Below are positions 33,125 through 61,653 of a stretch of 64,000 nt of DNA, one piece after another. The stretch covers positions 186,001 through 250,000 of the forward strand of contig NZ_JACJOD010000022.1 of NCBI RefSeq assembly GCF_014695385.1, given 5' to 3'. The notes below the pieces were generated by a model. The model made no database searches. It was not told the DNA's origin and worked only from the letters and a program-made list of their open reading frames with translations. This DNA comes from Trichocoleus sp. FACHB-46 (GTDB taxonomy: Bacteria > Cyanobacteriota > Cyanobacteriia > FACHB-46). Made by a program: the position numbers and the translations under genes. Every line of letters begins with the position of its first letter. Position 1 is the stretch's first letter.

Positions 33125-33143
33125 AAAATCAGGGATTGCCAAC

Positions 33144-41017: not shown

Positions 41018-43464
41018 GCGATCGCCTCACCGATGAGATCGCGCACGGCCTTGAGGAGGGTGTCGTCATGAAAGCTACTTTTAGTTAGGTAGTAGTCCGC
41101 TCCCACTTCCAACCCCCGCATGCGGTCTTCTTCTCGGTCTTTGTACGACACAATAATCACGGGTAAAGATTTTAAGGTGGCATGTTGCTTCAATTGACCA
41201 ATCAGCTCAATCCCATTCATCCGGGGCATGTCAATATCCGTGACGACCAAATCAAAATGCCCTGTACGAATGGCATTCCAGCCATCTATACCATTAACCG
41301 CTACTTCCACCGCATATCCTTTGTTTTGCAATAACTTCCGCTCCATTTCGCGTACCGTAATGGAGTCATCTACGACTAAAACGCGCTTTTGAGCTTTGGG
41401 TGCTAGCTGGGCTGTTTTACGACTGATATGACTAAGCTGACCATTAGCTAGCAGATGATCAATTGATCGCACCATGTCTTCCACGTCGATGAGGAGGACC
41501 GGAGAGCCATCTTCCAGGAGAGCCGCCGCGCTAATATTTTTCACCTTACCCAAGCGGGAATCGAGGGGCCTAACCACTAGATCTCGCTCACCCAGAAACC
41601 GATCTACCACTAGGCCATAGCAGCTCAAGCGATCGCTGATTACGATGATCGGGAGATCCTTGGCATGACCGGAAGAGGCAGGTAGCTCTAGAACTTGATG
41701 AGCCACTACCAGACCAATATTTTGCTCATCAATGGTGAAGAACTGGCGGTTTTCTGCCACCGCGATCGCCTCTGGTTCCACCATGACAATGCGGTCAATC
41801 CGAGTCAGCGGCAAGGCATAGGGCTCACCAGAAATCTCGACTAAAAGCGTGCGAATGACTGACAAAGTCAGGGGCAATTGCAGGTAAAAAGTCATGCCTT
41901 TACCTGGTTTAGAGATCGCCCGTAAGCTCCCCCCAACTTCCTGAATCATGTTCTGCACAATATTTAGCCCCACACCCCGTCCCGAGAGCTCCGTCACCGT
42001 ATCGCTGGTGGAAAAGCCTGGTAGGAACAGAAACTCAATTAGCTCCGCTTCTGCGAGTTGAGGAGCCATCTCAGGGCTGACCAATTGTTTGCTGACGATC
42101 TTGGCGCGTAAACGCTCAAAATCCATGCCTCGTCCGTCATCAGACACGGTGATCGAAAGCATGCCGCCCTGATGTAATGCTTCTAGACGTACTAATCCTT
42201 CTCCTGGTTTACCTGCTGCTAAGCGCTCTGCGACTGATTCAATGCCGTGGTCAACGGCGTTGCGGAGCAGGTGGGTGAGCGGTGCTTCTAGCTTTTCTAA
42301 AATGTCTCGGTCTACATCTGTAGCTTTGCCCAAAACTTCAAACCGGATCTGCTTATCTAGCTGCCTACCTAAATCTCGCACCATGCGCGGAAATGCCTGC
42401 ACGCCATCGGCAAAGGGGCGCATGTGACTCGCCAAAACTTCGCGATAGAGGCGATCGGACAAATTGGCAGAACGACGGGCAAATAGTTCCAATTCATTCA
42501 AGCGATCGCTCAACATCTGACGGCAATCAGTGGCTTGCTGCCGCACGGCATTGAGGTAGTTTTCGCTGCGCTGATTTAAGGGCTGCCCAACTAAAGATTC
42601 CTGCAACTTTTCTAACAAAGTGGACAGATCTGTTTGTTGCCGCCTCAGTTTTAATAAGGAATCGGCAAATGGTTGGAGCCAATTCGCTTCTACTAGCGAT
42701 TCTCCAGCCAATCCCATCAAACGGCTGAGGTTGTCGGCACTGACTCGAACCACCCGATCTAAGTTGTCGGCTGTCTGCATACCAGACGAGCTGAGCGGTG
42801 TCGCTTTAGCTGTTGCGGATAACGACGCGCCGGAAGCAACCGGATCAGCGATCGCTGTGGTGGCAATTTGGCTCTCTGCCATAGTTAAGCCCACAGTTGA
42901 CAGATGCGTTGCGATCGCTTCTGCTTCCAGAATCGGTGCTTGATTCAGTTCCTCAGGCGCGAGCGTACCAACTGGAGTAATTTCTACTGAAACGGTTGCG
43001 TCAGAAAGGACTGCTAGTTCGTTGGCGAGAGATTGCGATTGTGGATCTGGTTGTGGGTCTAGTAAAGTGGCGATCGCCCTGACCAGCGCTTCAATCCCCT
43101 CCGTTTGCTCGGCTAGCCACCCCTGTAATTGGGCCTCTGAAACTTGGCTTAACCGTAACAACAGATCAACGCCTTGGAGCAGTACATCAATATGCTCTGC
43201 CGCTAAAGTTGCAGTGCCCATCTGAGCACTCGCAAAGCAATCTTCCATCACATGAGCCAGTCGGACGCCCACCTCTAAATCAACAATTCGCGCGGCTCCT
43301 TTAATCGAGTGAGCGGCACGCATCAAGGACTCCAAGGTCTCAGGCAGCCCAGGATGAGTTTCTAACTCCAGCAAACCGTGGTTTAAGACTGCTGCTTGCG
43401 CCTCTACCTCCATCCGGAACAATTCCAGCATGGAGAAATGGCTAAAATCCTGATTTGCGCTCAC
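41014..43464 (-). CDS. cheA: Hybrid CheA histidine kinase with C-terminal receiver (WspE-like)
   Basis: An 816-residue chemosensory kinase. In order: an Hpt domain with phospho-accepting H52 ([11 protein letters not shown]); an Ala/Thr-rich linker; the dimerisation region; the ATPase domain ([32 protein letters not shown]); a CheW-like coupling domain; and a receiver with phospho-accepting D743 ([15 protein letters not shown]). The receiver motif [20 protein letters not shown] is close to my memory of WspE. It has no CheY-binding P2 domain that I can see. It overlaps cheB (4 bases) and the CheW gene (1 base), so all three are translationally coupled. Confidence 0.93.
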
Positions 43465-44141
43465 TACAGCAGCCTCCGGTTCAAGGTGTAAAACAGCAGC
43501 TCGTCATCTAAATAGTTCACACTATGGTTTTGCCAGTTGATGATGCCCTTGGTGTAGGTATCCTTGGCATTCGAGAGCGTTGCAGGTAAATTGCGGATGT
43601 CATCGGGGTGAATGCGCTGCACACCATAGACTTCATCAACGGGAAAGACCCAGCTACTTTTCTGGCTTTGCACCACCACCATGCGCTGATAGGCCATCTG
43701 ATGCGTGGTTGAAGCAGCAGCCACCTGCCCAATACCGAGCAGATCACGCAGAGAGATACACAATTGCAACTCACCGCGAATATTCACCAAGCCTTGAAAG
43801 ATCTGGTTACTCCGGTGCGGCAAAGTCCGAACTGAGCTAACTTGGGTAATCTCCTGAAACAACAGCGCTGATAGGGCTAACCATTCCTGGCCCAAGCGAA
43901 AGATCACTACTGATAGAGTGCCCGCCGTCTGCTCTATTTTCTCCTCAGCTAAGGAGCTAGCCCACTCCAGTAGATAATTAGCCGGGATCTCTCGCTCTAG
44001 TAAACTGCGTCCCGCTTGGGCGTAGACGGGACAGTTGCGGCAATGAATCATCTCCAAAAGTTCGGGGCAGGCGCGATCGCCGGAGACACCGATGGTATTC
44101 CAGCAGCGTTCGGAAGGAGATGACAAGTTTAGTTGATTCAT
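43464..44141 (-). CDS. CheW-like coupling protein with N-terminal Cys motif (WspD-like)
   Basis: A 225-residue CheW-domain protein. Before the CheW domain (residues about 80-215, VVIFRLGQEWLALSALLFQE ... GLVNIRGELQLCISL) there is a 70-residue head with four cysteines, C13, C25, C34 and C37, in CWNTIGVSGDRACPELLE and HCRNCPVY. As I recall, this GDRxCPEL/HCRNCPVY head is the mark of the WspD branch and distinguishes it from ordinary CheW. The cysteines may bind metal or sense redox state. It follows the MCP by 44 bases and overlaps cheA by one base. Confidence 0.87.
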   Translation of the reverse strand: MNQLNLSSPSERCWNTIGVSGDRACPELLEMIHCRNCPVYAQAGRSLLEREIPANYLLEWASSLAEEKIEQTAGTLSVVIFRLGQEWLALSALLFQEITQVSSVRTLPHRSNQIFQGLVNIRGELQLCISLRDLLGIGQVAAASTTHQMAYQRMVVVQSQKSSWVFPVDEVYGVQRIHPDDIRNLPATLSNAKDTYTKGIINWQNHSVNYLDDELLFYTLNRRLL

Positions 44142-44185: not shown

Positions 44186-45814
44186 TTAAGGGGAAATTGG
44201 GCGATCGCTGACTTGAAACCGAGCAATCTCTTGATGTAGCCCTTGCGCTACTTCGCCTAGCTGGGCGATCGCTCGATTAATTTCTTGAAGTGAATCAGCG
44301 GTTTGCGTCGATACATCACTCAGTTGCACCATGACATCACTAATCTGTTGTGCCCCTTGTGCCTGAGTTTCCATTCCTTGCGTCACAATCAAAAATTGCG
44401 GAGTCAGTGTTGTCACCTGCTCAATAATCTGACCCATTTGCTGGCTAATTTCCCTGACTTCCTCAGCTCCCTGCTTCACTTCCTGGTTGAACTTATCCAT
44501 TTCCATCACCCCAGTGGAGACAGAAGCCTGCATTTCTTTCACCGTTTGCTCAATATCTAAAGTAGCCACAGCGGTTTGGTCGGCCAAGCGGCGAATCTCT
44601 CTCGCCACTACTGCAAAGCCCAACCCCTGTTCTCCTGCTTTTTCCGCCTCGATCGCAGCATTTAAGGAGAGTAAATTCGTCTGGTCAGCCACTTTGGTAA
44701 TGGTCTTAATCACACCATTAATGCTTTGGGCCTTTTCGCGAATCACCTCCAGCCTGGAGGTAATGGAGGTGGTTGACCTCATTAATTGCTGCATCGAATT
44801 GGCCATAGCCGTGAGATTAACCTGGCTCACGCTGGCACTAGCAGCCGTAGTCTGAGACTTAGCAGCTACCACTTCCATCGTTTGCACCAAGTCTTCAGAA
44901 GTAACCGCAATCTGTTTTGCGGTCGCCACTACCTCTCGGGTCGAAGCCACTTGTTCTGTCACGGTGGCCTCTAGTTGTTTCCCAAAAGCAGTCAGCTTGG
45001 TGATAGAAGCTGTCACTTGAATGCCAGATTGTTGGACTTGACCAACGAAGCCACTGAGTCCCCGAATCATCCTTTGAAAGGCGAGGAGAAGCTGACCGAT
45101 TTCATTGCGATCGCTAATATCAGTTTTCAACTTTACGGTTAAATCACCGACAGAGATTTTCTCCGCAACATCTACAATCTCCGCAATCTGAGACTCCACT
45201 TGCCGAGAAAGCCAAAGCCCAATAATCAGATTAAAAACAACAGATATAACTACACCCAAAAACACTGAAACAACAACTAGTTTTTGGGCGGATTCAGATT
45301 CTTGCTCCAAGCGCTGTAACGCAGCCTGCTCTACCTGCAAAATTTGTTGTCGAGCTTCGTCAATATCATCCATTCGCAGAGATTTCATCAGAGCTTTAGC
45401 TTCAACCAATTGGCCTGAGTCAATTAGCTCAAAAATCTTCTGAGCAATTGCTTCATTTCGGTTCACCTTTTTGGCAAGATCCGCTATTTGCTGCTGACGC
45501 TCTAAACTCTGCGCTTGCTGATCCAGCTTTCCATAAGATTGATTGAATAGTTCTAAACCTTGATCATAGGATTGGATATAGCTTTTATCTTCTGGAAATA
45601 GCAGATAGCCTCGGACATTTCTGACCATTCTGGCAACGCCCAGCACCATTTGATCAACCTCAATAATGGTAGTCTGAGCTATCTTTTCTTCTGCCTGTCT
45701 TTGAAAAGCATTGCTTGTGTTTACATGAACGATTCCCCCTAGCCCTACTAAACACAAAATTGGTAGGGAGTATCCTATCAAGATCCGGTTTCTTAGTTTC
45801 TTATGCTTCAACAT
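44186..45814 (-). CDS. Methyl-accepting chemotaxis protein
   Basis: From ATG 45814 the receptor has 542 residues. A first membrane span follows the basic start ([17 protein letters not shown]), then a periplasmic helical domain with [16 protein letters not shown] that fits a four-helix bundle, and a second span ([20 protein letters not shown]). HAMP and a cytoplasmic coiled coil follow, with the kinase-interaction tip [20 protein letters not shown]. It has no C-terminal methylation pentapeptide. Its ATG lies inside the end of an upstream MCP remnant (45801-46047), so translation may be coupled to that fragment. WspA-like in position. Confidence 0.92.
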
Positions 45815-46047
45815 AGGCTTTGTGCTTAGATGAGTTGACTTTGAAGCGGGAAATCCCCTCACTTAGTATCTGGGCTACCTCTTTCAGCAACTCGATCGCC
45901 TGATTAATTTCCTTAAGAGAATCTGCCGTCTGCTCAGAGGTATCTCGCAGTTGCATCATGGCTTCGTTGATTTGTTGAGCGCCTTGAGCCTGGCCTTCCA
46001 TGCCTTGATTGACCGTGAGCAATCTGGGTGCTAGCGCCTCTACCTGG
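45801..46047 (-). pseudogene. 3' remnant of a third MCP gene
   Basis: About 81 codons in one frame match the C-terminal end of both neighbouring MCPs: QVEALAPRLLTVNQGMEGQA, then GAQQINEAMMQLRDTSEQTA and the ending GISRFKV. The upstream 480 codons are missing, and the match begins right after the stop of the previous MCP. The fragment ends KHKAYVEA, overlapping the start of the next MCP. It looks like the leftover of a middle MCP deleted by recombination between tandem copies. Confidence 0.85.
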
Positions 46048-46051
46048 CAAT

Positions 46052-47761
46052 CTAATAGCTATAGGCAGGTTGGGGTTCAAGCGCGATCGCGCCTACCTTA
46101 AAGCGAGAAATTTCTTGGCGCAAACCCTGAGCTGCTTGGTTCAACTGCTCGATCGCTCGATTAATCTCCTGCAAGGCATCCGCCGTCTGCACAGAGGTTT
46201 CGCTCAACTGCACCATTGCCTCACTGATTTGCTGCGCTCCTTGAGATTGTGCTTCCATCCCTTGATTCACTACAGAAAAGCGGGGTGATAGTGCTTGTAC
46301 TTGCTCAATAATTTCTCCTAACTGCTCACTGATAGTGCCTACATCCTCCACGCCTCGGCCCACTTCTTTGGTAAACTTGTCCATCTCCATCACTCCGGTG
46401 GAGACAGAAGATTGCATCTCCTTCACCATCTGCTCAATATCGAGGGTAGCCACAGCGGTTTGGTCGGCTAATCGACGAATTTCCCTTGCCACCACAGCAA
46501 AGCCCAAACCGTATTCCCCAGCTTTCTCTGCTTCAATAGCCGCATTGAGCGAGAGAAGATTAGTCTGGTCTGCCACTTTAGTAATCGTGTTAACCACACT
46601 GTTAATGTTGTTGGCCTTCTCACTAATAATTTCCAGCTTGGCGGAAATGGAATTAGTAGCAGCCACTAGCTGACGCATCGTAGTTGCCATTCGCAGCAAG
46701 TCTTCTTGGTTGGTAGCAGCAGCCACCGTTGTCTCTTGAGACATGGTTGCGACTTCTTCCATCGTGTTAGCCAGTTCTCCCGAAGTGGCAGCAATTTCTT
46801 TTGCGGTCACTACTACTTCATTGGTTGCCGCGACCTGCTCTGTGACGGTAGCTTCCAATTGTTTGCCAGAGGCTGCAATCTTCGTTGCCGAAGTTGTCAC
46901 TTGAATACCCGATTGCTGTACCTGGCGGATCAGGGAGTTGAGATTATGAGTCATAGATTGAAAAGCGACCAACAGCTTGTCAACTTCATCGTTGCTGTTA
47001 TTAGCACTCTCAACCTGCGTAGTTAAATCTCCGGCTGAAATTTGTTCTGCGACCACTACCACATTGGCAACTTTTGCCCCCAAGGGCTTCGCGATCGTGC
47101 GACTGAGATAGATGCCCAAAGCGATCGCTACTGTTGGTCCTGTCACTAACGTAAATATGACCCAGAAAGATGTCTGATTACTATCCTGAATAGCCATAAC
47201 CTGAGCGGCCTTCGCAACTTCAGTATTAGTGTCTAGAAGCTTAAGCAGATCCTCGGTAGCTGCATTAAAAGTAGGACGTTCTTGTTGAGACAGAAAGCGG
47301 TTGAGAGTTTGCACTTCAGATTCAGTTAAACCACTTTGCTTAGCTTCTTCGTAAAGCTGAAGAAATCGTTCTTGATCTGTTTTCCAATCCTCCCAGTGAG
47401 GCTGGAAAGCGGACTTGTAAAGCCTTGCCTCTTCAGGGGTTTGAGGCGTTGACTCGTATTGTTTAAAGCCAACATCAATTTGCTCCCAAGCCTTCTTGAT
47501 TCTGGTTAGCTCAGCCTCTTTATCATTCTCGCTAATTTCAGGATTAACCAAAACTCGCATAGAGGACTGAATTTGAGTTTGTCCCTCATTAATCTTCCAA
47601 ATACCAGCCACACTAGGAAGACTATTTTTAGTCAGAGTGTCAATATGTTTATTTAGACGGGAGATACCTAACCATCCGACACTTGCAGCAACTAAAACGA
47701 TCGCACTCATTACCCCAAATGAGCCAATCAAGCGATTCTGTAGTGACATGTTCTTGAGCAT
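46052..47761 (-). CDS. Methyl-accepting chemotaxis protein
   Basis: A 569-residue receptor with a first span ([20 protein letters not shown]), a periplasmic domain of about 160 residues with [20 protein letters not shown], and a second span ([21 protein letters not shown]). HAMP and the signalling helix follow, with tip [21 protein letters not shown]. The two MCPs are nearly identical around the tip but differ in their sensor domains, so they should feed different signals to the same CheA. Start ATG 47761; 331 bases separate it from the upstream cheR. Confidence 0.93.
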
Positions 47762-48092: not shown

Positions 48093-49436
48093 TTAGTGCT
48101 CAGATAAATGAATTCGCTGCAACCGTTGCCGCAACACCAGAGCACTCGCCAGATCACCCGATTGCTCTTTTAGTAAGACCAAGTGCAGCAGAGCTTCTTC
48201 GTGGTGCGGTTGTAAGTAGACAGCTTTGCGAAAACATTGCTCAGCTTCAGTTTCTTGGTCTACAGCTTGATAGAGTTGCCCTAAAAGGCAATAAGCCTCA
48301 GCATTATTACGATTTTGGTTGAGATACGCCTCACAGACTGCAACTGCTTCAACCAATTGCCCGCCATCCGCTAGCGTTTTGGCAGCAGTCAAAGATGCTT
48401 TTTGGGAGTCAGACACAGCAGTAGAGCGAGCATTCACCAATGTAGTTTTTGCCTCAATGCTAGGAACATTTGTCGGTTGCAACTCAAGCGCTTTGCGAGT
48501 GGATGTTGTATTTCTACTAGCTTTGGCTGGAGAAGCATTCCGCTTTTGTCCCTGCTGATTGTAAGTCATCAATACGGGGACTTTATCTTGAGTGCTAGAC
48601 TCAACCTTACGGAAAGCAAATGCTAAAGCGTGCCGAATGGGACTAAATCGGGATGGAGGCAGTTGTCCCATTTCTGAGTGACCAACAAAGAACAAGCCAT
48701 TTCTAACTAACAAACGATCTAAACGATGAATTGTTTGCTGCCTTGCCGCCTGATCTAAATAAATTAGTAAGTTGCGGCAAAAAACCACATCATAAGCTGG
48801 CTGATTCCAGAAAAGATTGGAATCTAATACATTTCCTTGAATAAAACTAACTGTTTTTCTGACAGATTCATTGAGCGAATACCCAGCTGTAACTCGCTGA
48901 AAGTATTTCTCCTTCAAAAAACTATTTTTTTCGCCTCCCTGGCTCAAGCTTTCTGCCTTGCCGATCGCAGCTTTGCCGCGAAATGAGTACTCGTCATAAA
49001 CAGCTAGTTGAGCTTTTTGTAGAGCCTTTTGGCTAATATCAACAGCATCAACTTGAAATTGTTCTGCTCCTAACCCTGCTTCTAACAAAGCGATCGCCAT
49101 TGAATAAGGTTCTTCCCCAGTCGAGCAAGGCGCACTCAAGATCCTGAAAACTTGATTGGGGTGGGCAGGCAACCACTCCGACATCACATAGTGCGCCAAT
49201 AACACGAACGGCTCGCGATCGCGAAAGAACCAAGTTTCTGGCACCACCACGGTCTCGATCAGGGCTGCCAATTCTGTCCCCGAAGTGTGCAATTGAGTTA
49301 GATAAGCTGCCATGTCTACTAGGCCACAGCTTGCCATGCGAGATCGAACCGCTCTAGCGATCGTATTAGAACCAATGGCAGCGGCATTCAAGCCAATCTT
49401 CTGCCTGAGTAAATTCTCGATTGTAGCTTCTATCAT
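48093..49436 (-). CDS. cheR: CheR methyltransferase with C-terminal TPR repeats (WspC-like)
   Basis: A 447-residue protein. The N-terminal 270 residues are CheR, with the SAM-binding motif CSTGEEPYS (104-112), the acidic VDAVDISQKAL, and the segment YDVVFCRNLLIYLD. A linker follows, then TPR repeats at about 340-447 (EAYCLLGQLYQAVDQETEAE, then CFRKAVYLQPHHEEALLHLV). CheR with C-terminal TPRs is the form seen in Wsp clusters (WspC). It methylates glutamates of the cluster's MCPs. It starts 11 bases after the upstream cheW gene. Confidence 0.92.
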   Translation of the reverse strand: MIEATIENLLRQKIGLNAAAIGSNTIARAVRSRMASCGLVDMAAYLTQLHTSGTELAALIETVVVPETWFFRDREPFVLLAHYVMSEWLPAHPNQVFRILSAPCSTGEEPYSMAIALLEAGLGAEQFQVDAVDISQKALQKAQLAVYDEYSFRGKAAIGKAESLSQGGEKNSFLKEKYFQRVTAGYSLNESVRKTVSFIQGNVLDSNLFWNQPAYDVVFCRNLLIYLDQAARQQTIHRLDRLLVRNGLFFVGHSEMGQLPPSRFSPIRHALAFAFRKVESSTQDKVPVLMTYNQQGQKRNASPAKASRNTTSTRKALELQPTNVPSIEAKTTLVNARSTAVSDSQKASLTAAKTLADGGQLVEAVAVCEAYLNQNRNNAEAYCLLGQLYQAVDQETEAEQCFRKAVYLQPHHEEALLHLVLLKEQSGDLASALVLRQRLQRIHLSEH

Positions 49437-49447
49437 TCTCAGGTACT

Positions 49448-49915
49448 TTATTGCACAACTGGCAGATCAATTACTTGCGTTGGAGGTAGCTGCACTGGAG
49501 ATAATAGGTGTTCCACATCAAGGCACTGGATCACACCTTGGGTATCCATTAATTTTTTGCCTAAATAAGGAGCTGTATCCACCACCATTCCCGCAGGAAC
49601 CAGCGTAGTACTAGACGTATTAAAAGTTTGCGTCACTCTCTCTGCTAGTAAGCCTAATATTTGTGTCTGGTTCTCGGCACTGAGAAAGCGAGCCACAATA
49701 ATTCGAGTACTTAAGTAGGAGCGACAAGGACGACGACGAACCAGCTGGCATAGATCTACCACAGGCACCATATGACTCCGGTAGCGCAACAGACCAGATA
49801 CATAGGCAGGTGCTTGGTGCGGTTTTGTCAGTCCTATTAGCGGTAGCACCTCCACCACCTGCTGGCTCTCCAAGGCATAACGCTCATCATCAATTGCAAA
49901 GAGCAGCATCAACAT
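49448..49915 (-). CDS. cheW: CheW coupling protein (WspB-like)
   Basis: A 155-residue single CheW domain (LLFAIDDERYALESQQVVEV, then SGLLRYRSHMVPVVDLCQLV) that links receptors to CheA. It is the first gene of the leftward cluster. It starts at ATG 49915 or at the ATG two codons later, 11 bases before cheR. The cluster has two CheW proteins, as in Wsp (WspB and WspD). Confidence 0.9.
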   Translation of the reverse strand: MLMLLFAIDDERYALESQQVVEVLPLIGLTKPHQAPAYVSGLLRYRSHMVPVVDLCQLVRRRPCRSYLSTRIIVARFLSAENQTQILGLLAERVTQTFNTSSTTLVPAGMVVDTAPYLGKKLMDTQGVIQCLDVEHLLSPVQLPPTQVIDLPVVQ

Positions 49916-50221
49916 AAGGCAATCCCACTAAGCCGAACAGAATTTCTAGCAACTCAGCCAATTTCCGGCGCGATCGCTGAGGTTCACTTCTAGAATGACC
50001 AAATTAGGGCCAGACTTATCCAGTCAGTTGATGGAAGAAAATTAGCCAAAATGCGGATTAAGGAACTATACCTTATGAACTAGACTAACAGAATATACTC
50101 TCAAAAAACAGTATTATTATTAACTCTATTAGGTGCAATCAGTCGGTTTATCACTTACTTCAAGTTTTCCTCATCACACACATTCATGCCCTAAATACTA
50201 GCCATTTCATCAGCCTGGCTT
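49916..50221. promoter_or_regulatory. Shared divergent promoter region of the Wsp-like cluster
   Basis: 306 bases with no gene, between the divergent cheW and receiver-kinase genes. It must carry promoters in both directions, which suggests common control. No specific boxes could be assigned. Confidence 0.5.
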
Positions 50222-51553
50222 ATGATGTCAATGCCACCAGAAATTGTTACTAAAAGTCCGGAAGCATTCAGTGAATCCACCATACTTTCACCTGCTCCCC
50301 AAATTGTTGTTTTGCTCATTGATGATCAAATTATTATTGGTGAAGCAATTCGGCGGATGCTGGCTTCCGAACCAGATGTAATTTTTCATTATTGTAACGA
50401 TGCTGCGCAAGCAATCCATCTTGCTGAAGAAGTTGCTCCAACAGTCATTTTGCAAGATCTAGTTATGCCTAACATCGACGGGTTGATGTTAGTTCGTCAG
50501 TTCCGCTCTAATCCCATTACTTGCAATATCCCATTAATTGTACTTTCGACCAAAGATGAACCGAAAGTCAAAGCGGAAGCTTTTGCATTAGGAATTAATG
50601 ACTACTTAGTTAAACTCCCCGATAAAATCGAATTAGTTGCTCGCCTGCGATATCATTCCAGAGCTTATCTTAATCATCAAGCCCAGACTGCCGCACTGAC
50701 GGCGCAAGCTCAAACTCAGAAGCTAGAACAAGCTTTGCAAGAGTTGCGAAAAACGCAATCGCAGTTAATTCAAACCGAGAAGATGTCGAGCTTGGGCCAG
50801 ATGGTGGCAGGAGTAGCCCATGAAATTAATAATCCTGTTAACTTCATCTATGGCAATCTCAAGCATATTGAAAATTATATTCAAGAGCTACTAGATTTAG
50901 TTCATCTTTATCAAGAAGAATATCCTCAGCCAAGCACAAAAATTCAAAGTTATATTGAAACAATTGATTTAGATTTTGTAGCCCAAGATCTCCCTAAAAC
51001 CCTATCCTCGATGAAAATAGGTGCAGATCGAATTCGTCAAATTGTCTTATCCCTACGTAATTTTTCTCGGCTTGATCAAGCTGAAATGAAACGAGTTAAT
51101 TTGCACGAAGGCATTGACAGTACTCTTCTTATTCTGAATCATCGTATCAAGCAAGGAATTACTATTATTAAGAGCTACTATGACTTACCTTTAGTCGAGT
51201 GTTACCCCGCTCAGCTCAATCAGGTATTCATGAATATTCTGAATAATGCGATGGACGCGCTGTTAGAAGACTCAGGCAAAGCCCACAAACAAATCACTAT
51301 CCAAACTGAACTAACGAATTCTCATCAAGTTCAGGTCCGTATTCAAGATAACGGTTGTGGGATTCCGCTAGAAATTAAGAATAAATTGTTCGATCCCTTT
51401 TTTACTACTAAACCCGTAGGCCAAGGCACTGGTTTAGGTCTCGCCATTTGCTATCAAATTGTCGAAAAGCACCAAGGTGAAATCGAAATTGGTTCTGGCC
51501 CAGAGGGGGGAGCAGAGTTTATTATTCGTTTACCAGTTCAGCACTTTTCTTGA
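50222..51553 (+). CDS. WspR-type receiver fused to a histidine kinase
   Basis: A 443-residue protein. The receiver (about 27-150) has acidic D34/D35, phospho-accepting D79 in [15 protein letters not shown]110 and K131, and ends [12 protein letters not shown]. Segments such as [36 protein letters not shown] and [20 protein letters not shown] match what I remember of the P. aeruginosa WspR receiver almost word for word. Instead of GGDEF, a coiled coil (155-185) leads to a histidine kinase: H200 in [14 protein letters not shown]-box [14 protein letters not shown]1 IQDNGCGIP and G2 [10 protein letters not shown]. The kinase core is a paralogue of the one at 7021-8511. It is the probable output of the adjacent chemosensory cluster (inference). 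Confidence 0.88.
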
Positions 51554-51726: not shown

Positions 51727-52911
51727 CTAAAATTTTGGCAGGGGCTGTTGATTTAGAAGAGCAGTATAAACTTGGAGTAGTTTTCTTGCAGCTACATCCC
51801 AAGTATAGTTTTGAAAAATAAACTGACGGGCGCGATCGCCCAGCTCCTTGGCCTGCTCCAAATTACCCAAATATTTCGCTAGAGCATCTGAAATTGAATC
51901 AACATTAGTATCAACTATGCACGCGGCATCTGCTTTTGCTGCTTCAGGAAAATTGCAACCTGTAGTAATAACACAAGGTAAACCAGAGGCCATACCTTCG
52001 AGCACAGACATGCTGAATCCTTCAGAATAGGAAGGAGCAACATAAATACTGGCAGCGGCAAGGGCAGCATACTTTAAGCTACCTGTCAGTAGCCCTGTGA
52101 ACGTTACAGCGTTTATACATCCTGCCTGTAAAAAATAACTCTGGGCGGTAGACGAAAAGCCAGTGTTGTCTGGTCCTGCAACAATCAAATGAGCTTGTGG
52201 AAAATGGCGGTGAACTTTAGCAAAAGCAGGAGCCAGTAGATCTAATCCTTTCTTAGGATCAATTCGACCGAGGAATAATACTATAGTTTTATTCTGAAGA
52301 GACGGGAATTTCTCAAAGAGAGGTTCTGTTTCCGGCAGTGCTTTAAAGTCTTCAGGATGAACACCGTTATAAATGATGACAGTAGGTGTATTTAATCCAA
52401 GAGATTTAGCATTGTCAGCTTCAGTTCCACAAGAAAACTGAATTGTACTCGCAGACTGAAGTGCAGGCTTTTCAACGACAGAATAATAAACCTTTTTCTT
52501 CCATACTTTATAGGATAAAGCCCAAGGTTCTAGCATGCCGTGTGCTGTCATCACATAGGGAATCCGATAAAGCTTACATATACAGTGAATTATTGAAACC
52601 AACGGAGAAAAGAGAGTATTAGTATGAACTATGTCATAATCTTCAACATTCTTAAGCATCCACTTAACTAAAGAAGAGCTAACAATAAAATCATTTTTAT
52701 TGAAGCAGGGAAAGTATTGAACTCTATAGGCTCCCTCCTCAATCCAAACATTCAATGGTTTGGATAACTTAGAGGGATTGCTAGCATTAGTTGTAATAAC
52801 ATCAACAGTAACACCCAAACAAGCAAGCCCCTTAGCTATTCCCAGCACAATCTTAGGGATACCACCATAAACCTCTCCCATATAGGGTGTAACGAGCAAA
52901 ATTTTCATCAA
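51727..52911 (-). CDS. GT4 glycosyltransferase
   Basis: A 394-residue GT-B enzyme. The N-terminal Rossmann domain starts ILLVTPYMGEVYGGIPKIVL. The C-terminal GT1-type donor domain has FLGRIDPKKGLDLLAPAF and the ExFGxxxxEG-type motif as PSYSEGFSMSVLEGMASGLP. It adds a sugar to the growing repeat unit on the cytoplasmic side. It is the last gene of the leftward polysaccharide cluster. Start ATG 52911 or the next codon. Confidence 0.88.
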   Translation of the reverse strand: MMKILLVTPYMGEVYGGIPKIVLGIAKGLACLGVTVDVITTNASNPSKLSKPLNVWIEEGAYRVQYFPCFNKNDFIVSSSLVKWMLKNVEDYDIVHTNTLFSPLVSIIHCICKLYRIPYVMTAHGMLEPWALSYKVWKKKVYYSVVEKPALQSASTIQFSCGTEADNAKSLGLNTPTVIIYNGVHPEDFKALPETEPLFEKFPSLQNKTIVLFLGRIDPKKGLDLLAPAFAKVHRHFPQAHLIVAGPDNTGFSSTAQSYFLQAGCINAVTFTGLLTGSLKYAALAAASIYVAPSYSEGFSMSVLEGMASGLPCVITTGCNFPEAAKADAACIVDTNVDSISDALAKYLGNLEQAKELGDRARQFIFQNYTWDVAARKLLQVYTALLNQQPLPKF

Positions 52912-52942
52912 CTTTAAGCTCTGGTTGATTAATGTATCTTTA

Positions 52943-54118
52943 TTAGGCAGCGCTCATTGCGGATTTGGCTGCTTGCATAAGTCCATCGGCAAAGTTACTA
53001 GGTGAGTAGTTAGTAATAATTTTTTGGCTTACTTTTCCCATTTGAGCACGCAGTAATGAGCTTGACCTATGGATATTAACTAGCTTACCTATCATGTCCT
53101 CTACATTCTCTGGATCGAATAGAAAACCATTATGGTTATTGTGAATAAGCTCATGGCAGGCACCTACAGTCCGACTACAAAGAATTGGCAATCCAGCTGC
53201 ACAGGCTTCGTTAACTACAAGCCCCCATTGCTCTTGTAATGCAGGGTGTATAAAAGCTTCAGCAAGACCATACCAATCTCCTAAGTCTTGGTAACTAATA
53301 AAACCAGGTAGATGGATGCAATAGTTTAGCCCTTTGTTCAGAATCAAGCTACGAATAGATGGTTCTTCTACTCCAGTACCACAAATTACCAGATCCCAAG
53401 CATGAGCTTCTTCTACTTGCTCACGATAAGCAACAAAAGATTCTATAAGTCGATGAATGTTTTTACGTTTAATAAATCGGGTTGCAGCAAGATAGTAAGG
53501 TTTATTAGGAATTTGAGGCTGACGTAATCTTGTAGTATTGGGATCCCGTCTAGCCTTCTCGGCTTGCTGACTAAAGTAGTCATTGTCGACTACGTCATAG
53601 CCAAGAAAAATGCGATCGGGACGAAATCCCAGTTGAACTAGATAGTCACGATGTAAATTACCGCCTACTAGTGCAGCGTCGTATCGCTTGACATACAGCC
53701 AAGATTTAATCATTTCCTTCCAAAATGTACGTCTAGCATCATCCCACTTGCTTTCACTCATCAAAATTGATAAAGCGGCATGCCGTTTGCACCACAATAA
53801 AGCTGCACGAGAAATAGGAAAACCCCAACCAGGAATGGCAACAACAGTTGGTTGTAGCGTATTCAGACAATCAAATAATAGAGATGTTGCAGGTATAGAA
53901 GAATTCGTACTATTTAGGGCGGTAGCCGATGTAGACAAAAGAGTTTTGAGGGGAAATGTAATCTCACGGCCCATGTCTCCCCAAGGATGTTCTTTGGTAG
54001 TATCTGTAACTTGTACTGCTGTAAACTGCCAATCTCTGCGTTGGCAAGCATCGTAGGTAGCTCGCAAACGGGCCGCGTGGTAACCCCCAATGTTATCGAA
54101 AATAACAACTACATGCAT
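52943..54118 (-). CDS. GT4 glycosyltransferase
   Basis: A 391-residue GT-B enzyme. The N-terminus (VVIFDNIGGYHAARLRATYD) is followed by YLAATRFIKRKNIHRLIESF and the donor-site motif FIHPALQEQWGLVVNEACAA, where E-x7-E is visible (Q-E-Q-W-G-L-V-V-N-E). The acceptor is unknown. It lies 31 bases before the next glycosyltransferase gene and 37 bases after the polymerase-like gene. Confidence 0.87.
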   Translation of the reverse strand: MHVVVIFDNIGGYHAARLRATYDACQRRDWQFTAVQVTDTTKEHPWGDMGREITFPLKTLLSTSATALNSTNSSIPATSLLFDCLNTLQPTVVAIPGWGFPISRAALLWCKRHAALSILMSESKWDDARRTFWKEMIKSWLYVKRYDAALVGGNLHRDYLVQLGFRPDRIFLGYDVVDNDYFSQQAEKARRDPNTTRLRQPQIPNKPYYLAATRFIKRKNIHRLIESFVAYREQVEEAHAWDLVICGTGVEEPSIRSLILNKGLNYCIHLPGFISYQDLGDWYGLAEAFIHPALQEQWGLVVNEACAAGLPILCSRTVGACHELIHNNHNGFLFDPENVEDMIGKLVNIHRSSSLLRAQMGKVSQKIITNYSPSNFADGLMQAAKSAMSAA

Positions 54119-54155
54119 AGCCGAAAAATTAGTACTTAGTTGCTAGTTAATTGCG

Positions 54156-55496
54156 TCATGAGTGAGGAAGCCTCATGGGTGGATGCGGATTGGAGGGATA
54201 AGGATGAGTTGATGGATACATCCTGAGAGTTAGATTCCGACGTTTCATCCAGAGCAATAAAAAGCAGGGCCAAAAAGCCATACCGATCCAAGCATAAATT
54301 CCAGCTAAATCTCCGCCTCTTAGCAGTGGGATAAGAGACGAGCAAAGAATCGCACGAACTAAAACCCCTGCAAAAGGCTGAAGCTGAGTACTATACCGAA
54401 CAACCTTGGCAATGACTAAGCCGTATAAAGGAGCAAAAAAGAGTATGCCAAATAGTCCAATTTCTGCATAAAACGATCCAAATATAGTTGGTGAAATTCC
54501 TACAGTGCCCCTACCACCTGCGATTGTAAAGCCTAACTTATTCATGTATCCTCCTACAGGTTTCTCAGGCCACCAAGCTCTAGGGATTGGCCGTATAAAT
54601 ATTTCTAGATGCTCCATTCCCCAACGGAAGTCTAGTTGCTCAGGATAAACATTTTTCAACAATACAAAGCCATCTAACATATTGGCGTCTTCAGCGCCTA
54701 ATGCTCGTTCCAGCGCAATTTGATTGAGAGATTGGTTAGCTATGTTGGGATTACGCATGGCTCCACTAATAGCAAATACAGCCATAGCTAATATGAGAGA
54801 GAGCGTTAACAAAGCCAAACGTATTTTTGGTCGGTAAAATGAAGAAACAATGATTCCAGCAGCAATCATCCATCCTAAAAACTGGAAGCGAGCCTGACTT
54901 CCAAAAGTCAAGTAAAATACACTTGTTAAAATGGAGAGCGCCATCACTTTATTAATGAGAGAAGTTATTGCTCCAAACCGCCAAAGACAGACAACAAGAA
55001 TTGCAATTCCTACTAAAGCAAAAGGAAACAAGTACAAATAGTTATTAATTTGAAAGGCTAGTGAGCTTCCGGCGCTGAGCTGGGTTGCTATTTGAGAGCG
55101 AGTAAGAATGACTAATGGCAAACAAAATAAACCAAGAAGAAGGGTCTTGGGCCGCAACCATTGTAGAACTGAGCGATCACTCGGTGGAATTGCAACTGCT
55201 AAGCTTCGCCTTTGACAAAGCATATAAGTGCTAAGCAAACAAATTTCCCCAAGAGTAATATACATTAGAGCCTCAAGGGCGGCTTCTTGAGTTATTGGTT
55301 TTGATATAAACCAACTTAACTTAATCCATTGGTTAATCCCATGCTCAACAGCCCAGTAGCGATAAGAAGCAACATAAAATAGAAAGCTACTAATAATTAA
55401 TGGAATTTCATCATTGCGCTTCAAAAACCAGATAACACTTAGTACTAGGAAGGCTATTTGAGTAAAGGCAAGTTCAGGATATTCAAATAGTGGCAT
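54156..55496 (-). CDS. Polysaccharide polymerase-like membrane protein (Wzy/O-antigen type)
   Basis: A 446-residue integral membrane protein with about 10-12 hydrophobic spans and a large outward loop around residues 250-330 (ALGAEDANMLDGFVLLKNVY, PIPRAWWPEKPVGGYMNKLG). The pattern fits the O-antigen/repeat-unit polymerase group, which are poorly conserved; the PRxxWPxKP segment is a common mark of WzyE-like enzymes. Its start overlaps the stop of the preceding glycosyltransferase gene by 14 bases. It would polymerise repeat units at the periplasmic face. Confidence 0.78.
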   Translation of the reverse strand: MPLFEYPELAFTQIAFLVLSVIWFLKRNDEIPLIISSFLFYVASYRYWAVEHGINQWIKLSWFISKPITQEAALEALMYITLGEICLLSTYMLCQRRSLAVAIPPSDRSVLQWLRPKTLLLGLFCLPLVILTRSQIATQLSAGSSLAFQINNYLYLFPFALVGIAILVVCLWRFGAITSLINKVMALSILTSVFYLTFGSQARFQFLGWMIAAGIIVSSFYRPKIRLALLTLSLILAMAVFAISGAMRNPNIANQSLNQIALERALGAEDANMLDGFVLLKNVYPEQLDFRWGMEHLEIFIRPIPRAWWPEKPVGGYMNKLGFTIAGGRGTVGISPTIFGSFYAEIGLFGILFFAPLYGLVIAKVVRYSTQLQPFAGVLVRAILCSSLIPLLRGGDLAGIYAWIGMAFWPCFLLLWMKRRNLTLRMYPSTHPYPSNPHPPMRLPHS

Positions 55497-56739
55497 AAGG
55501 TAAGGCCTGGAGATTGTTTTGGAGTGTTGCCAAACCGAAATGCTCCATACTAGTAGATTGCCGAGAAAAATTTACTAATTGTTGAGGATTATTTAAACAA
55601 AAGAGGAGAGCTTCGGCGATCGCTGCTCCAGTCACGTTCTGCAATATCAATCCGCTTACTCCATCTTTCACGACTGCACCACAAAATCTGGACGCAATTG
55701 TTGGGAGTTTCCAGGCTTGCGCTTCCAGCTGTGTTAGTCCAAACCCATCCGAAAGAGTTGGAAGTAGAAAAATATCTGCCTGTTGATAGTATTGAGCTGT
55801 TGCGCTGCGAGGAACAGAACCAATCCACCGCACCTGTTCATGCACCTTATCCTGTTGGGGTCTAGCAATGCCTGGAGAACCAACTAGCCAGAATTCTATG
55901 TGTTGGTCACGTAGGTGTTCAGCCGCTTCTAGCAGTGCAACAATGCCCTTGCGTAAGATAACCTGACCAAGAAACAGCACTCGGAGCGGACGTTCAGCTG
56001 AGAAAGCAGAAGGGTAGGTTCGCACAAAGTCACGCGCTTGCTCAGGAGGTTCATAGGCAAGAGGAATGATATCAATCTTGTTAGCGGGTACTCCTGCTTG
56101 CTGCAAAGCTTGGCTTGACCACTGCGAGTTAACTAAAATCCGGTCAGCTAATGAGCATTCTTCCTGCCATCTGACCCAGTAGTGGGGTGGTGCCGGTTGC
56201 CAACTAGATTCATAGATCGAGTGTCTCGCGTATTCCTCTAGAACCAACTTTTCCTCAGTTGGCCCTGGATCAATTTGACCAAGGATAGTGCGCCAACCTC
56301 TGGTCTTGGCGTAACGGAACAGTTCTAAGGTAGCGTAACTGTAGGCAAAGAGGGTAGGGGGAGAATTGAGAGAGGAGTGTTGAGGAGCGATCGCATTTAG
56401 TACCTGCACTGCCCGTTTTTGGAACCAGTGATTACGGTCGATAATACGTTCCCATCCTGAGGTTTTCTGAAGGCGTTGAGTTAGTTCAAAGCGCATCAAA
56501 GAACCAGTGAAGGCGTGGACAGAGGTTTGGGCTAAATCTACATGGAACCGTTCACGTAAATTAGTGAACAGAGGTGTAGGCAGCTGGTTCAGTGCAGACT
56601 GTGGTGGAACCCAGGCATCTGTAATCAGGTGGGCGAGTTGTCCGGTCTGATGTAAAGCCCGTGGGATAGCGTAATGTTCACGCGCTCCTAGTTGACAACA
56701 GATCCAGGATGGCAATTCTTCATTTCTCAAAGTAGCCAC
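55483..56739 (-). CDS. GT4 glycosyltransferase
   Basis: A 418-residue GT-B enzyme, with a C-terminal domain containing LFLGQVILRKGIVALLEAAE, then FLLPTLSDGFGLTQLEAQAW (E-x7-E region) and LPTIASRFCGAVVKDGVSG. The N-terminal half is larger than in its neighbours. It overlaps the acyltransferase gene by 13 bases and the polymerase gene by 14 bases, so these three genes are tightly coupled. Confidence 0.87.
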   Translation of the reverse strand: MATLRNEELPSWICCQLGAREHYAIPRALHQTGQLAHLITDAWVPPQSALNQLPTPLFTNLRERFHVDLAQTSVHAFTGSLMRFELTQRLQKTSGWERIIDRNHWFQKRAVQVLNAIAPQHSSLNSPPTLFAYSYATLELFRYAKTRGWRTILGQIDPGPTEEKLVLEEYARHSIYESSWQPAPPHYWVRWQEECSLADRILVNSQWSSQALQQAGVPANKIDIIPLAYEPPEQARDFVRTYPSAFSAERPLRVLFLGQVILRKGIVALLEAAEHLRDQHIEFWLVGSPGIARPQQDKVHEQVRWIGSVPRSATAQYYQQADIFLLPTLSDGFGLTQLEAQAWKLPTIASRFCGAVVKDGVSGLILQNVTGAAIAEALLFCLNNPQQLVNFSRQSTSMEHFGLATLQNNLQALPYATI

Positions 56740-57275
56740 GGTTGGTAGTTCAGCGTGTAGTGCAAGTCAGGCGATCGCTTTTTCACGAATCGGGCTGGGC
56801 TACCGGCAACAATGGTGTAAGGTTCCACATCTTTGGTCACGACAGAACCCGCACCCACTACGGCACCCTCGCCAATCCTGACTCCTGGCAAAATAATCGC
56901 TCGGTAAGCAATCCAAACGCGATCGCCTATGATTACATCTCCACCCTTATCGCCAAACTCAGACGACTGTGGATCATGTCCCAGGGTTAAGATTGTCGCT
57001 TCTGGGCCAATGGAGACATCAGAACCCGTTTGGATCTGGTAGTGGCGACCATCAAATAGGCAGCCGAAGTTAAGCACATTGCGATCGCCCAGATACACCT
57101 TTCTCCCATTCAAAAACCGACATCCCATTTGAACAGAAGTCCCCAACCCAACCTTTGCTAAATAGGCTTTGAGATAAGTCATACGAATTTTACGAGATGG
57201 CAAGTTTCCAAGAAGCTGATTGTAGCTGTAGCTCAAAACACTACCTGTAAAAGCTTTAAAGTTTACATGTGACAT
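56727..57275 (-). CDS. Hexapeptide-repeat acyltransferase (WcaF/maltose O-acetyltransferase-like)
   Basis: A 182-residue left-handed beta-helix acyltransferase. Hexapeptide repeats run from about 40 to 165 (VQMGCRFLNGRKVYLGDRNV ... IIGDRVWIAYRAIILPGVRI ... GEGAVVGAGSVVTKDVEPYT). It probably acetylates a sugar of the exported polymer. A truncated second copy lies at 58358-58607, on the other side of cysC. Confidence 0.9.
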   Translation of the reverse strand: MSHVNFKAFTGSVLSYSYNQLLGNLPSRKIRMTYLKAYLAKVGLGTSVQMGCRFLNGRKVYLGDRNVLNFGCLFDGRHYQIQTGSDVSIGPEATILTLGHDPQSSEFGDKGGDVIIGDRVWIAYRAIILPGVRIGEGAVVGAGSVVTKDVEPYTIVAGSPARFVKKRSPDLHYTLNYQPWLL

Positions 57276-57301
57276 GCTACTGGTACTTTTCTTTTAAGCT
57301 T

Positions 57302-57773
57302 TTATATCATCGAGTTTTTACGAATAAATCCAGCCCCAATCCCGGGTTTAGGATTGCGAAGTTTAGTATCTTCATGTAGCAACTCTGGTATACAGGGTAG
57401 TTCTACCGCCCAGCAATTCTTACCTAACCTGGGCATAGTAAACGCGATATCATTCATTTGTTTATGCACCAACTCTAGGTTGCATGGCAAGTGGGCAGGG
57501 GAAGTACTGCCCTTGCCCCGATACACTCGAAAGCTCCAAGGAATCCGCCAAGGCCCAACCACGAGATGAAGCACGACCAGATGCACGCCTCGTTTGCCAT
57601 GTAACATCGAGACTAAGCGCTCAAAGGCCTTGAACTTGCCTCGTTTTCCCAATCATTAAATCATCAATTACTTGGAGATGCGGTCGCAATGAGACTAGAA
57701 TTGCTTTTTGAGATGCTGGCCCAGTGAGTGCGTCAGCCTTAGTGTATGTTTCTGTTCCACTGCTAAAATTCAT
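57302..57773 (-). pseudogene. Frameshifted transposase remnant
   Basis: From ATG 57773 the frame encodes MNFSSGTETYTKADALTG and continues to LQVIDDLMIGK; near 57650 an extra A in a run of four shifts the frame, and the rest continues as KRGKFKAFERLVSMLHGKRG to about 57302. The VIDD segment, the VLHLVVGPWRIPWSFRVYRG region and the basic character fit an insertion-sequence DDE transposase N-terminal half. The C-terminal half and the terminal repeats are not seen. IS family not assignable with confidence. Confidence 0.72.
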
Positions 57774-57787
57774 ATCCTTGCTAAGGC

Positions 57788-58357
57788 ATGAGTAATAATT
57801 CTTTCTTAAAGGATACCGGTGTGATTTTATGGTTAACTGGAATTAGCGGAGCGGGGAAGACCACGATTTCTCGGCATCTAGAGCATAAACTACAAGAATA
57901 CGATCGCCTAGTTGAGCTACTGGATGGGGATGTCATTCGTCAAAATCTCTCCAAAGAGTTGAGCTTTAGTCGTGAAGACCGGAATACCAATGTACGTCGG
58001 GTGGGTTATGTGGCAAACCTTCTCAGTCGTAACGGCGTGATCGTCATTGTTGCTCTGATCAGTCCATACCGTTCTGTCCGCGATGAACTGCGCTCCACGC
58101 TCAACAACTTTGTCGAGATCTACGTTAATGCCTCCCTAGAAGTTTGTGAGGCCAGAGACGTGAAAGGGCTTTATGCCAAAGCACGCTCCGGTCAAATCCC
58201 ATTGTTTACGGGCATTGATGATCCCTACGAAGTGCCACTCAATCCTAATATCACTTGCTACACTGCTGAAGAAGAAACGGTAGATGAAAGTACTAATAAA
58301 ATCGTAATTTGGCTAGAAAGCATGGGCTATCTACAAAGACCAAAAATTCGGCAATAA
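57788..58357 (+). CDS. cysC: Adenylyl-sulfate (APS) kinase
   Basis: Phosphorylates APS to PAPS, the sulfate donor of sulfotransferases. The 189-residue protein has the P-loop GISGAGKTT (18-26), the segment LLDGDVIRQNLSKELSFSRE, the ISPYRSVRDE loop and the signature GLYAKARSGQIPLFTGIDDP. It is the only gene on the plus strand among the polysaccharide genes. Its stop at 58355-58357 abuts a truncated acyltransferase copy. A sulfotransferase gene lies 2.3 kb away in the same cluster. Start ATG 57788. Confidence 0.94.
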   Translation: MSNNSFLKDTGVILWLTGISGAGKTTISRHLEHKLQEYDRLVELLDGDVIRQNLSKELSFSREDRNTNVRRVGYVANLLSRNGVIVIVALISPYRSVRDELRSTLNNFVEIYVNASLEVCEARDVKGLYAKARSGQIPLFTGIDDPYEVPLNPNITCYTAEEETVDESTNKIVIWLESMGYLQRPKIRQ

Positions 58358-58607
58358 AATTGATGATGTTGCGATCGCCCAGATACACCTTTCTCCCATT
58401 TAAAAATCGACATCCCATTTGGACAGAGGTTCCCACTCCCACTTGTGCCAAATAGGCTTTGAGATAGGCCATGCGAATTTTACGAGATGGCAAGTTTCCA
58501 AGCATTTGACTGTAGCCATAACTCAGAACACTACCAGTGATAATTTTCAAGTTCACGGGTGCAATCCTATTCAACGGCTTTGAATGATTGTCTAGTGTCT
58601 GGCTCAA
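58358..58607 (-). pseudogene. Truncated second copy of the acyltransferase gene
   Basis: The first about 83 residues match the N-terminus of the acyltransferase at 56727-57275 nearly residue for residue (GSVLSYGYSQMLGNLPSRKI, then GRKVYLGDRNIINF). The homology stops exactly at the stop codon of cysC, and the reading frame runs on into cysC antisense to 58293. All hexapeptide repeats are lost, so it cannot be active. Its start (58607) overlaps the end of the FkbM gene by 4 bases, showing that it was once a coupled second acyltransferase gene. Confidence 0.88.
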
Positions 58608-59413
58608 CCTCGGTACGCTGAAATTACGGTGCAGTTAACGCTAGGGTCTTCAGCCCCTTCGATTGTGTAACCATGCTCTCGCAATAGAGAAAGCAAAGAC
58701 TGACCTTTGGTATTAAAATAGTGGATTTCCATGCTGATCCAGCGAGGATACGGACCATTTTTTAGCAACGCCGGAAGCACTTCATATTCAGCCCCTTCAA
58801 CATCAAGTTTGAGCCAGCAATCTGGTTCTATTTCAAGCAGAGTACAGGGAATTGGGACTCCAGGCGGGTTTTCATCAACGAAGCCAGTGTGCGAAGACTG
58901 AGCATGGTAGTAAAGGGTGGTGTTTTTTGACCAAAGACCCAACTGATGGGTGTCCACTTGCAGATGATTGAGCGCTAAGTTCTTCTGGAGTTGTTGGAAG
59001 TTGGCTGAATCCGGCTCATAACAGATTAATTTAGCTTTGGGGAAGTAACTGTTAGCGTGAATGGCAAACAGGCCAATATTCGCACCGCCATCCACAATAG
59101 TTTTGGGTTCAAAATTAGGAACTTCATAGGCTCCCCTGACTAATTCACCCCCCATTAGGTAGTCGGCTTCGTTACCCTGGCGCATAGAGAAATACGTCAA
59201 TCTTCTCTTAATGTATAGCTGAAGTTGAACGAAACCTGTTGCACCAAGGTCATTGATGCGCTTGATAAACCACAAGCGCAGCTTGACGCGGTGAGAACCA
59301 AGTACCCCCAGACCAGCGATCAGGAAAGCTAGCCATTTGTCCTGCAAAGAGGCTCCTTGGTGAGCGTGATGACTCAGTTTAAAGATCGTGGATATAGTGG
59401 ACATACACTTCAA
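58604..59413 (-). CDS. FkbM-family methyltransferase
   Basis: A 269-residue SAM-dependent methyltransferase. Motif I is TIVDGGANIGLFAIHAN, followed by KLICYEPDSANFQQLQKNLA and PDCWLKLDVEGAEYEVLPAL. The typical FkbM ending (WISMEIHYF) is present. It likely O-methylates a sugar of the polymer. Start ATG 59413, 3 bases after the stop of the upstream glycosyltransferase gene. Confidence 0.9.
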   Translation of the reverse strand: MKCMSTISTIFKLSHHAHQGASLQDKWLAFLIAGLGVLGSHRVKLRLWFIKRINDLGATGFVQLQLYIKRRLTYFSMRQGNEADYLMGGELVRGAYEVPNFEPKTIVDGGANIGLFAIHANSYFPKAKLICYEPDSANFQQLQKNLALNHLQVDTHQLGLWSKNTTLYYHAQSSHTGFVDENPPGVPIPCTLLEIEPDCWLKLDVEGAEYEVLPALLKNGPYPRWISMEIHYFNTKGQSLLSLLREHGYTIEGAEDPSVNCTVISAYRG

Positions 59414-59416
59414 GAG

Positions 59417-60589: not shown

Positions 60590-60668
60590 GACTCAATTTT
60601 GTTGAGTTTGGAATGAGCTAATTACTTCGAGGCCTTAGGGAACAATACACCTTAGATTTACAATAAAT

Positions 60669-61601: not shown

Positions 61602-61653
61602 ATCATTAGCCATTAGATAAACTCTGCCCTTATGCTAAACATAATTTTCTCTC

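Follow-up and report, generated by a model that had tools for sequence, protein, structure and literature searches.

A protein of 443 aa from Trichocoleus sp. FACHB-46, encoded in a stretch of 64,000 nucleotides that was analyzed as a whole (the window), consists of a Wsp-type receiver fused to a histidine kinase of a common cyanobacterial kind. Its gene stands beside a chemosensory cluster with counterparts of all of WspA-F. We consider it probable that these genes make up a Wsp-type pathway with the WspR-receiver/cyanobacterial kinase protein as its output, an independent counterpart of WspH that works by the mechanism proposed below. Since relatives of the receiver carry at least four kinds of output, the output of the Wsp-type pathway looks exchangeable.

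The output protein and its Wsp-type cluster

The features of the window discussed here are the following.

50222..51553, plus strand: output protein of 443 aa, WspR-type receiver, predicted coil and histidine kinase (open reading frame and Pfam)
50309..50647, plus strand: receiver, residues 30-142 (Pfam PF00072, Response_reg)
50456-50458, plus strand: phosphoacceptor D79 in the receiver (family alignment)
50660..50791, plus strand: linker, residues 147-190 (linker-length comparison)
50792..50875, plus strand: HisKA phosphoacceptor helix, residues 191-218 (PF00512)
50819-50821, plus strand: H200 of HisKA (motif position)
51206..51541, plus strand: HATPase_c, residues 329-440, the kinase part belonging to a multi-copy cyanobacterial family (PF02518)
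49916..50221, no strand: gap of 306 bases separating the output gene from the divergent cluster; part of it is conserved in two congeners
49448..49915, minus strand: CheW, WspB counterpart, 155 aa (PF01584; best match of PA7 WspB among the compared loci)
48093..49436, minus strand: CheR-TPR, WspC counterpart, 447 aa (CheR and TPR families; best match of PA7 WspC)
46052..47761, minus strand: MCP with 4HB sensor, WspA counterpart, 569 aa (Pfam; best match of PA7 WspA)
44186..45862, minus strand: second MCP, 558 aa (Pfam and PA7 comparison)
43464..44141, minus strand: CheW, WspD counterpart, 225 aa (Pfam and PA7 comparison)
41014..43464, minus strand: CheA with C-terminal receiver, WspE counterpart, 816 aa (Pfam, PA7 comparison and CheA trees)
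39980..41017, minus strand: CheB, WspF counterpart, 345 aa (Pfam and PA7 comparison)
51727..62676, minus strand: polysaccharide-type gene cluster (Pfam of five genes, the rest by eye; synteny)

The Pfam analysis of the output protein found HisKA and HATPase_c; a GGDEF output is absent and the histidine kinase stands in its place. The kinase boxes N, G1, F and G2 were all located. The full histidine kinase with ATP-binding boxes that the sequence-only reading had described is thus present, and D79 and H200 lie where they had first been placed. The distance from S146, in the YHS motif, to H200 is 54 residues, and the linker between them is predicted to be a coiled coil.

Next to this kinase is a receiver that resembles WspR over its whole length, as had been claimed from the sequence. 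Among solved structures it matched WspR of P. aeruginosa (3bre) at E 4.9e-50 and a second WspR structure (3i5a) at E 3.9e-49; the first family other than WspR was PleD, at E 2.2e-15. Identity to WspR of P. aeruginosa PA7 was 64% over 123 residues. The likeness is far from chance, because the best other receiver in the same genome (6.56 Mb, 92 contigs, 99.98% complete) reached only E 6.5e-14 among 126 matches that include the 443-aa protein (150 of 177 candidates scored). None of the other scored candidates was a second receiver of the WspR type. A quick tree grouped the receiver with the WspR family and apart from eight own-genome receivers with an SH-aLRT of 94, a value that is weakened by long outgroup branches. 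D79, K131 and P133 were invariant in 117 of 117 aligned family receivers; K131 is presumably the conserved receiver Lys, by analogy with CheY. The residue between K131 and P133 is Leu in 114 of the 117, which gives K-L-P, and the same motif reads K-P in seven and K-D in one of the eight outgroup receivers. By the structure search, the own-genome search and the tree, the receiver does not group with those of generic receiver-kinase hybrids.

The description of the protein as a generic cyanobacterial hybrid was ruled out by the same comparisons, the receiver being WspR-type and not an ordinary one.

A true WspR with a GGDEF domain elsewhere in the genome was also sought, and none was found among the own-genome GGDEF and receiver matches. 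There are 22 GGDEF matches, and the receiver-bearing frames among them, of 330 aa (C14) and 635 aa (C41), have receivers with 25% and 33% identity to that of the 443-aa protein. The cluster CheA could still act, in addition, on a GGDEF protein whose receiver is of the ordinary kind.

The neighboring cluster had been called Wsp-like, and comparison with P. aeruginosa PA7 (locus L163) agrees with this. When WspA-F of PA7 were used as queries, all six had their top match in the window, out of the own-genome loci included in the comparison. These loci were the ones fetched by CheW domain, CheB domain or receiver likeness, and the best-match status of the MCP and CheR genes (WspA and WspC) holds within this set. 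The WspE counterpart showed 48% identity over 753 residues (709 bits, the next own-genome match 301) and the WspF counterpart 52% (335 bits, the next 221). Identities were 39% for the WspC counterpart, 41% over 542 residues for the WspA counterpart at 46052-47761, and 38% and 34% for the WspB and WspD counterparts. The arrangement is kept in two congeners, where the output gene is 88% identical and a third MCP is present.

Between both MCP genes of the window lie about 70 codons of an MCP C-terminus (45837-46046, minus strand). This fragment looks like the remnant of a lost receptor, because a third MCP match occurs there in both congeners. At 33102-34561 (plus strand) the window also encodes a DUF4388 protein, followed by a small GTPase-like protein (ATP_bind_1; weak Ras/Arf-type matches).

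The output gene adjoins the gene of the WspB counterpart and is divergent from it; it is not placed after the wspF counterpart. The sequence-only reading had seen here a shared promoter region of 306 bases. The divergence and the 306 bases were found as described, and the promoter-like matches within 49850-50300 are at background level (1 found, 0.9 expected by shuffling). On its other side the output gene borders on the polysaccharide-type cluster. Pfam assigned three of five genes there to glycosyltransferases and one to FkbM methyltransferases, and one was without a match. A glycosyltransferase-rich cluster abuts the output gene in all three species of the genus, with differing content; this position suggests, as an argument from gene order, that the output pathway controls a surface polysaccharide. 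The cluster at 51727-62676 is largely collinear in one congener (G001) and made of other genes in the second (G002).

A search of the window with four generic regulators gave no DNA-binding regulator as a candidate partner, such as the RowR-like one to which an H-system would signal. In three other genomes (L069, L075 and L079; L153 is the same place as L069) a NarL-type regulator, presumably Rre1/Ycf29, lies near the kinase gene. An 85% identical copy elsewhere in the Trichocoleus genome suggests that this regulator is a core gene, so that its position may have no significance.

Relatives of the receiver and their outputs

We surveyed 386 cyanobacterial genomes, drawn evenly from the phylum, at E <=1e-20 with 11 candidates scored per genome. 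A match occurred in 23 genomes, the Trichocoleus genome included, with a total of 25 receivers. Their outputs were 12 class III cyclases, nine histidine kinases (one of them a PAS hybrid) and four SpoIIE-type phosphatases; none of the 25 had a GGDEF output. The count of receiver-kinases versus receiver-GGDEF proteins that the sequence-only reading had proposed for cyanobacteria is therefore nine to zero in this survey, and two Pseudanabaena loci with GGDEF lie outside it. Beyond the 386 genomes, the receiver is joined to a kinase in the two congeners as well, and in one further genome it stands without an output domain.

A scan of a collection of species genomes gave at least 588 relatives, of which the best 80 were used. 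These were ranked by likeness to the query, so the proportions of outputs are biased. Many relatives come from metagenome assemblies, and the phylum may thus be wrong for single contigs. The 28 cyanobacterial loci and the best 80 of at least 588 gave 107 distinct proteins after removal of L153, a duplicate of L069. In this set we counted 29 PP2C, 27 GGDEF, 27 cyclase and 22 histidine kinase outputs, with classes assigned by Pfam for 20 representatives and by BLAST grouping for the remainder. The other two are L063, which is receiver-only by Pfam, and L104, a 128-aa frame without an assigned output. The two Pseudanabaena loci with GGDEF are among the best 80 of at least 588, which means that cyanobacteria do not lack this output; a general absence of GGDEF from the phylum was ruled out in this way. 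Among the sources of the loci in the combined set are cyanobacteria, planctomycetes, Verrucomicrobia, Lentisphaerae, Desulfobacterota and Pseudomonadota.

Of these 107 proteins, 98 have a neighbor that matches CheA and/or CheB at E 1e-10 and over 60% of the query. L060 and L061 also show one once further DNA is read, and seven are without such a match nearby (L090, L112, L120, L133, L140, L142 and L165).

Some individual loci were recorded separately. The cyanobacterial loci L070, L073 and L078 each encode a receiver-SpoIIE protein with CheB after it, and 18 kb of sequence gave no match to CheA there. Two genomes, G104 (L044/L058) and G347 (L042/L059), have two WspR-type receivers each; the output of one is a kinase, that of the other a cyclase. 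Desulfonema magnum (G414; L184 and L185) has two WspR-type receiver-SpoIIE proteins about 1.4 kb apart.

Next we analyzed the distribution of the outputs on trees of the receivers and of the neighboring CheA proteins. All of these trees are unrooted, and changes were counted without direction. The quick receiver tree, built from 125 rows and 130 columns and with 60 of its 120 inner branches unresolved, needs 13 changes for the four outputs, and a careful tree of 116 rows without outgroup and without L153 needs 15. L153 and L069, from the same genomic place, are both in the quick receiver tree, the kinase tree and the AU tests on these; L153 has no CheA match and is hence outside the CheA trees. 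A single clade of all 29 receivers on histidine kinases was rejected in an AU test (p 0.0007). The 16 cyanobacterial ones as one clade were not rejected (p 0.90), and neither was a clade of the 443-aa protein with the WspH receivers (p 0.57).

The CheA trees have 96 rows and 455 columns. In them a single branch separates the 29 cyanobacterial rows from all others, with an SH-aLRT of 98 in the quick tree and support of 99/98 in the careful one. The outputs beside them are eight histidine kinases, 16 cyclases, two GGDEF, one PP2C and two others, one of which is L104. The CheA trees need 11 changes (quick, mixture model) or 13 (careful, simpler model). The eight cyanobacterial rows with a kinase output were not rejected as one clade (AU p 0.84). 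Trees that hold the cyanobacterial kinase rows together scored better than the free quick trees, by 20 for the receivers and by 17 for CheA, which means that the change counts from the quick trees may be too high. With well-supported branches alone, the minimum number of changes on the careful CheA tree is four for histidine kinase, five for GGDEF, four for PP2C and three for cyclase; on the careful receiver tree the numbers are three, four, three and two, where three changes for an output may equal one gain and two losses. Taken together, the results give good support to a repeated exchange of outputs when the receiver family is considered as a whole, and leave room for different numbers of exchanges within cyanobacteria.

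These results bear on the earlier proposal that the pathway was rewired from c-di-GMP production to phosphotransfer. What holds of it is the combination of a WspR-type receiver with a kinase, beside a cluster of the Wsp type. The wording "rewired from c-di-GMP" goes further than the results and is too narrow, because GGDEF is one of at least four outputs, any of which may have come first.

Proposed mechanism and origin of the fusion

The mechanism that we propose would begin with receptor arrays that activate the WspE-like CheA. This would phosphorylate D79 of the receiver-kinase; a change in the receiver dimer would then pass along the linker and switch the autophosphorylation of H200. The relay through the linker is probably like the one along the helical stalk of WspR, by which, according to the accessible text of PMC2270323, signals are passed to its cyclase. 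The kinase would then phosphorylate a response regulator, which most likely controls transcription; the regulated targets may be the adjoining polysaccharide genes. The WspF-like CheB and the WspC-like CheR-TPR would set adaptation, and the stimulus may be contact with a surface. Phosphotransfer, direction of control, partner, stimulus and the link to polysaccharide are all steps that we infer.

In a different scheme the kinase would phosphorylate its own receiver, or the receiver would drain phosphate from it, and the protein would be a brake or a relay hub, not a switch that CheA turns on. The two domains share a single chain, and the direction of transfer cannot be told from the sequence, which speaks for this scheme; on balance it is doubtful, since the same receiver family occurs on outputs that are not kinases beside similar CheA genes, and this fits CheA as the donor. 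We infer this role of CheA in the preferred mechanism because CheA co-occurs with the receiver whatever the output.

The origin of the protein was traced with its kinase half. This part has 43 further matches in the same genome at E <=1e-30, the best with up to 66% identity over the full length and 69% over part of it. Three of these kinases lie in receiver-bearing frames of 444-485 aa (C27, C6 and C81), with receivers that have only 27-30% identity to that of the 443-aa protein. The abundance of the kinase and the dissimilarity of these receivers indicate that a Wsp-type receiver was joined to a common kinase. We placed the kinase in a tree together with 50 paralogues, which come from five genomes and include 24 of the 43 own-genome matches; it falls among these paralogues. 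The 14 rows with the multi-copy cyanobacterial kinase were rejected as a single origin (AU p 0.006); ten of them (the genus of the window, L062 and the f30/Sphaerospermopsis set) were not (p 0.64). The groups in both of these tests were chosen after seeing a tree.

The closest published parallel is WspH (WspHRR) of the H-system of Burkholderia cenocepacia, likewise a WspR-type receiver on a histidine kinase with WspA-E alongside; the loci compared here are from Burkholderiaceae. Pfam confirmed a receiver and HATPase_c in four WspH-type proteins. They differ from the 443-aa protein in kinase family, in linker and in the lineage of their CheA. Two WspH-type kinases align to the kinase of the 443-aa protein only in short stretches, with 26-30% identity, and lie beyond very long branches in the kinase tree. 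The YHS motif is 18 residues from the His in the four WspH-type proteins, versus 54 in the 443-aa protein; linkers of the multi-copy-type kinases measure 41, 54, 55, 65 and 66 residues. In the CheA tree, the CheA of the cluster is placed among cyanobacterial systems, and the single CheA there that comes from beside a WspH gene falls with Burkholderiaceae. Gene order is also different: the WspH gene is 5' adjacent in its cluster, according to the available part of PMC8552884, and the output gene here is divergent, next to the WspB counterpart.

Because of the other kinase family and the linker of 54 versus 18 residues, the fusion looks independent of Burkholderia WspH. A common origin, with one fusion moved between phyla, is very improbable: the receivers alone do not reject a joint clade (p 0.57), but the kinase parts, the linkers, the CheA lineages and the rejected single clade of the 29 receivers on kinases (p 0.0007) all argue against it. 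An ordinary cyanobacterial receiver-kinase hybrid that lies beside a chemosensory cluster by chance would agree with the 43 own-genome kinase matches and the three receiver-bearing frames of about the same size, but is hardly credible for a receiver with 64% identity to WspR, an own-genome runner-up at E 6.5e-14, a separate place in the tree (SH-aLRT 94) and K-L-P in place of K-P.

The Burkholderiaceae genomes G428 and G466 (L216, L217, L218 and L219) have a WspH-type gene beside WspA-E matches. Both also hold a WspF-WspR(GGDEF) pair elsewhere, with no WspA-E match in 14 kb there. The available text of PMC8552884 reports that no organism with both H- and R-systems was found.

Relation to published Wsp systems

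The change from a diguanylate cyclase to a histidine kinase in the Wsp output is already published for Burkholderia WspH, as the accessible portions of PMC4324302 and PMC8552884 make clear. In the proposal of the first, a kinase took over from the cyclase module and activates a regulator that binds DNA. The second describes 206 H-systems and 588 R-systems, finds no significant change of c-di-GMP in wsp mutants of B. cenocepacia and assigns Wsp to beta- and gammaproteobacteria only. Pseudomonas WspR shares with the present system the receiver (64%) and the WspA-F set, and differs by its GGDEF domain in contrast to the kinase here.

For a cyanobacterial Wsp cluster, too, an output that replaces WspR has already been published. 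The part of PMC4971617 that is available describes, in Phormidesmis priestleyi BC1401, a Wsp cassette where an adenylate cyclase takes the place of WspR, and notes similar genes in other cyanobacteria. This receiver (L125) falls in the WspR family in our receiver tree. The Phormidesmis cassette is thus another cyanobacterial Wsp cluster with a different output in the place of WspR; its output is a class III nucleotide cyclase, and the same text looks for WspR among GGDEF proteins elsewhere. A survey of CheR-TPR/ACF clusters, as far as the available part of PMC3447774 goes, likewise lists regulators with histidine kinase, GGDEF, phosphatase or mononucleotidyl cyclase outputs, but neither follows the receivers as one WspR family nor maps changes of output onto a tree. 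The accessible portion of PMC7063779 has WspR as a modelling template only. Titles and opening lines of abstracts among the open papers listed gave no report of a receiver-kinase output of a cyanobacterial Wsp cluster, and none of one receiver family across these outputs; the wider output pattern of the family seems not to have been laid out before.

We lean towards the view that Wsp is an old front end present in many phyla, and that its receiver is an adapter that was plugged repeatedly into diguanylate cyclases, cyclases of the cAMP/cGMP type, SpoIIE phosphatases and at least three kinds of histidine kinase, with c-di-GMP as the exceptional output in cyanobacteria. The published view of Wsp as confined to beta- and gammaproteobacteria would then be revised. 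Should the receiver prove to be a true adapter, nature would have coupled a single conserved input, WspA-F plus receiver, to four chemically different outputs. These proteins would offer a ready-made natural set for testing how a receiver transmits its signal through linkers, and the adapter view would predict what the pathway does in organisms with an output other than c-di-GMP.
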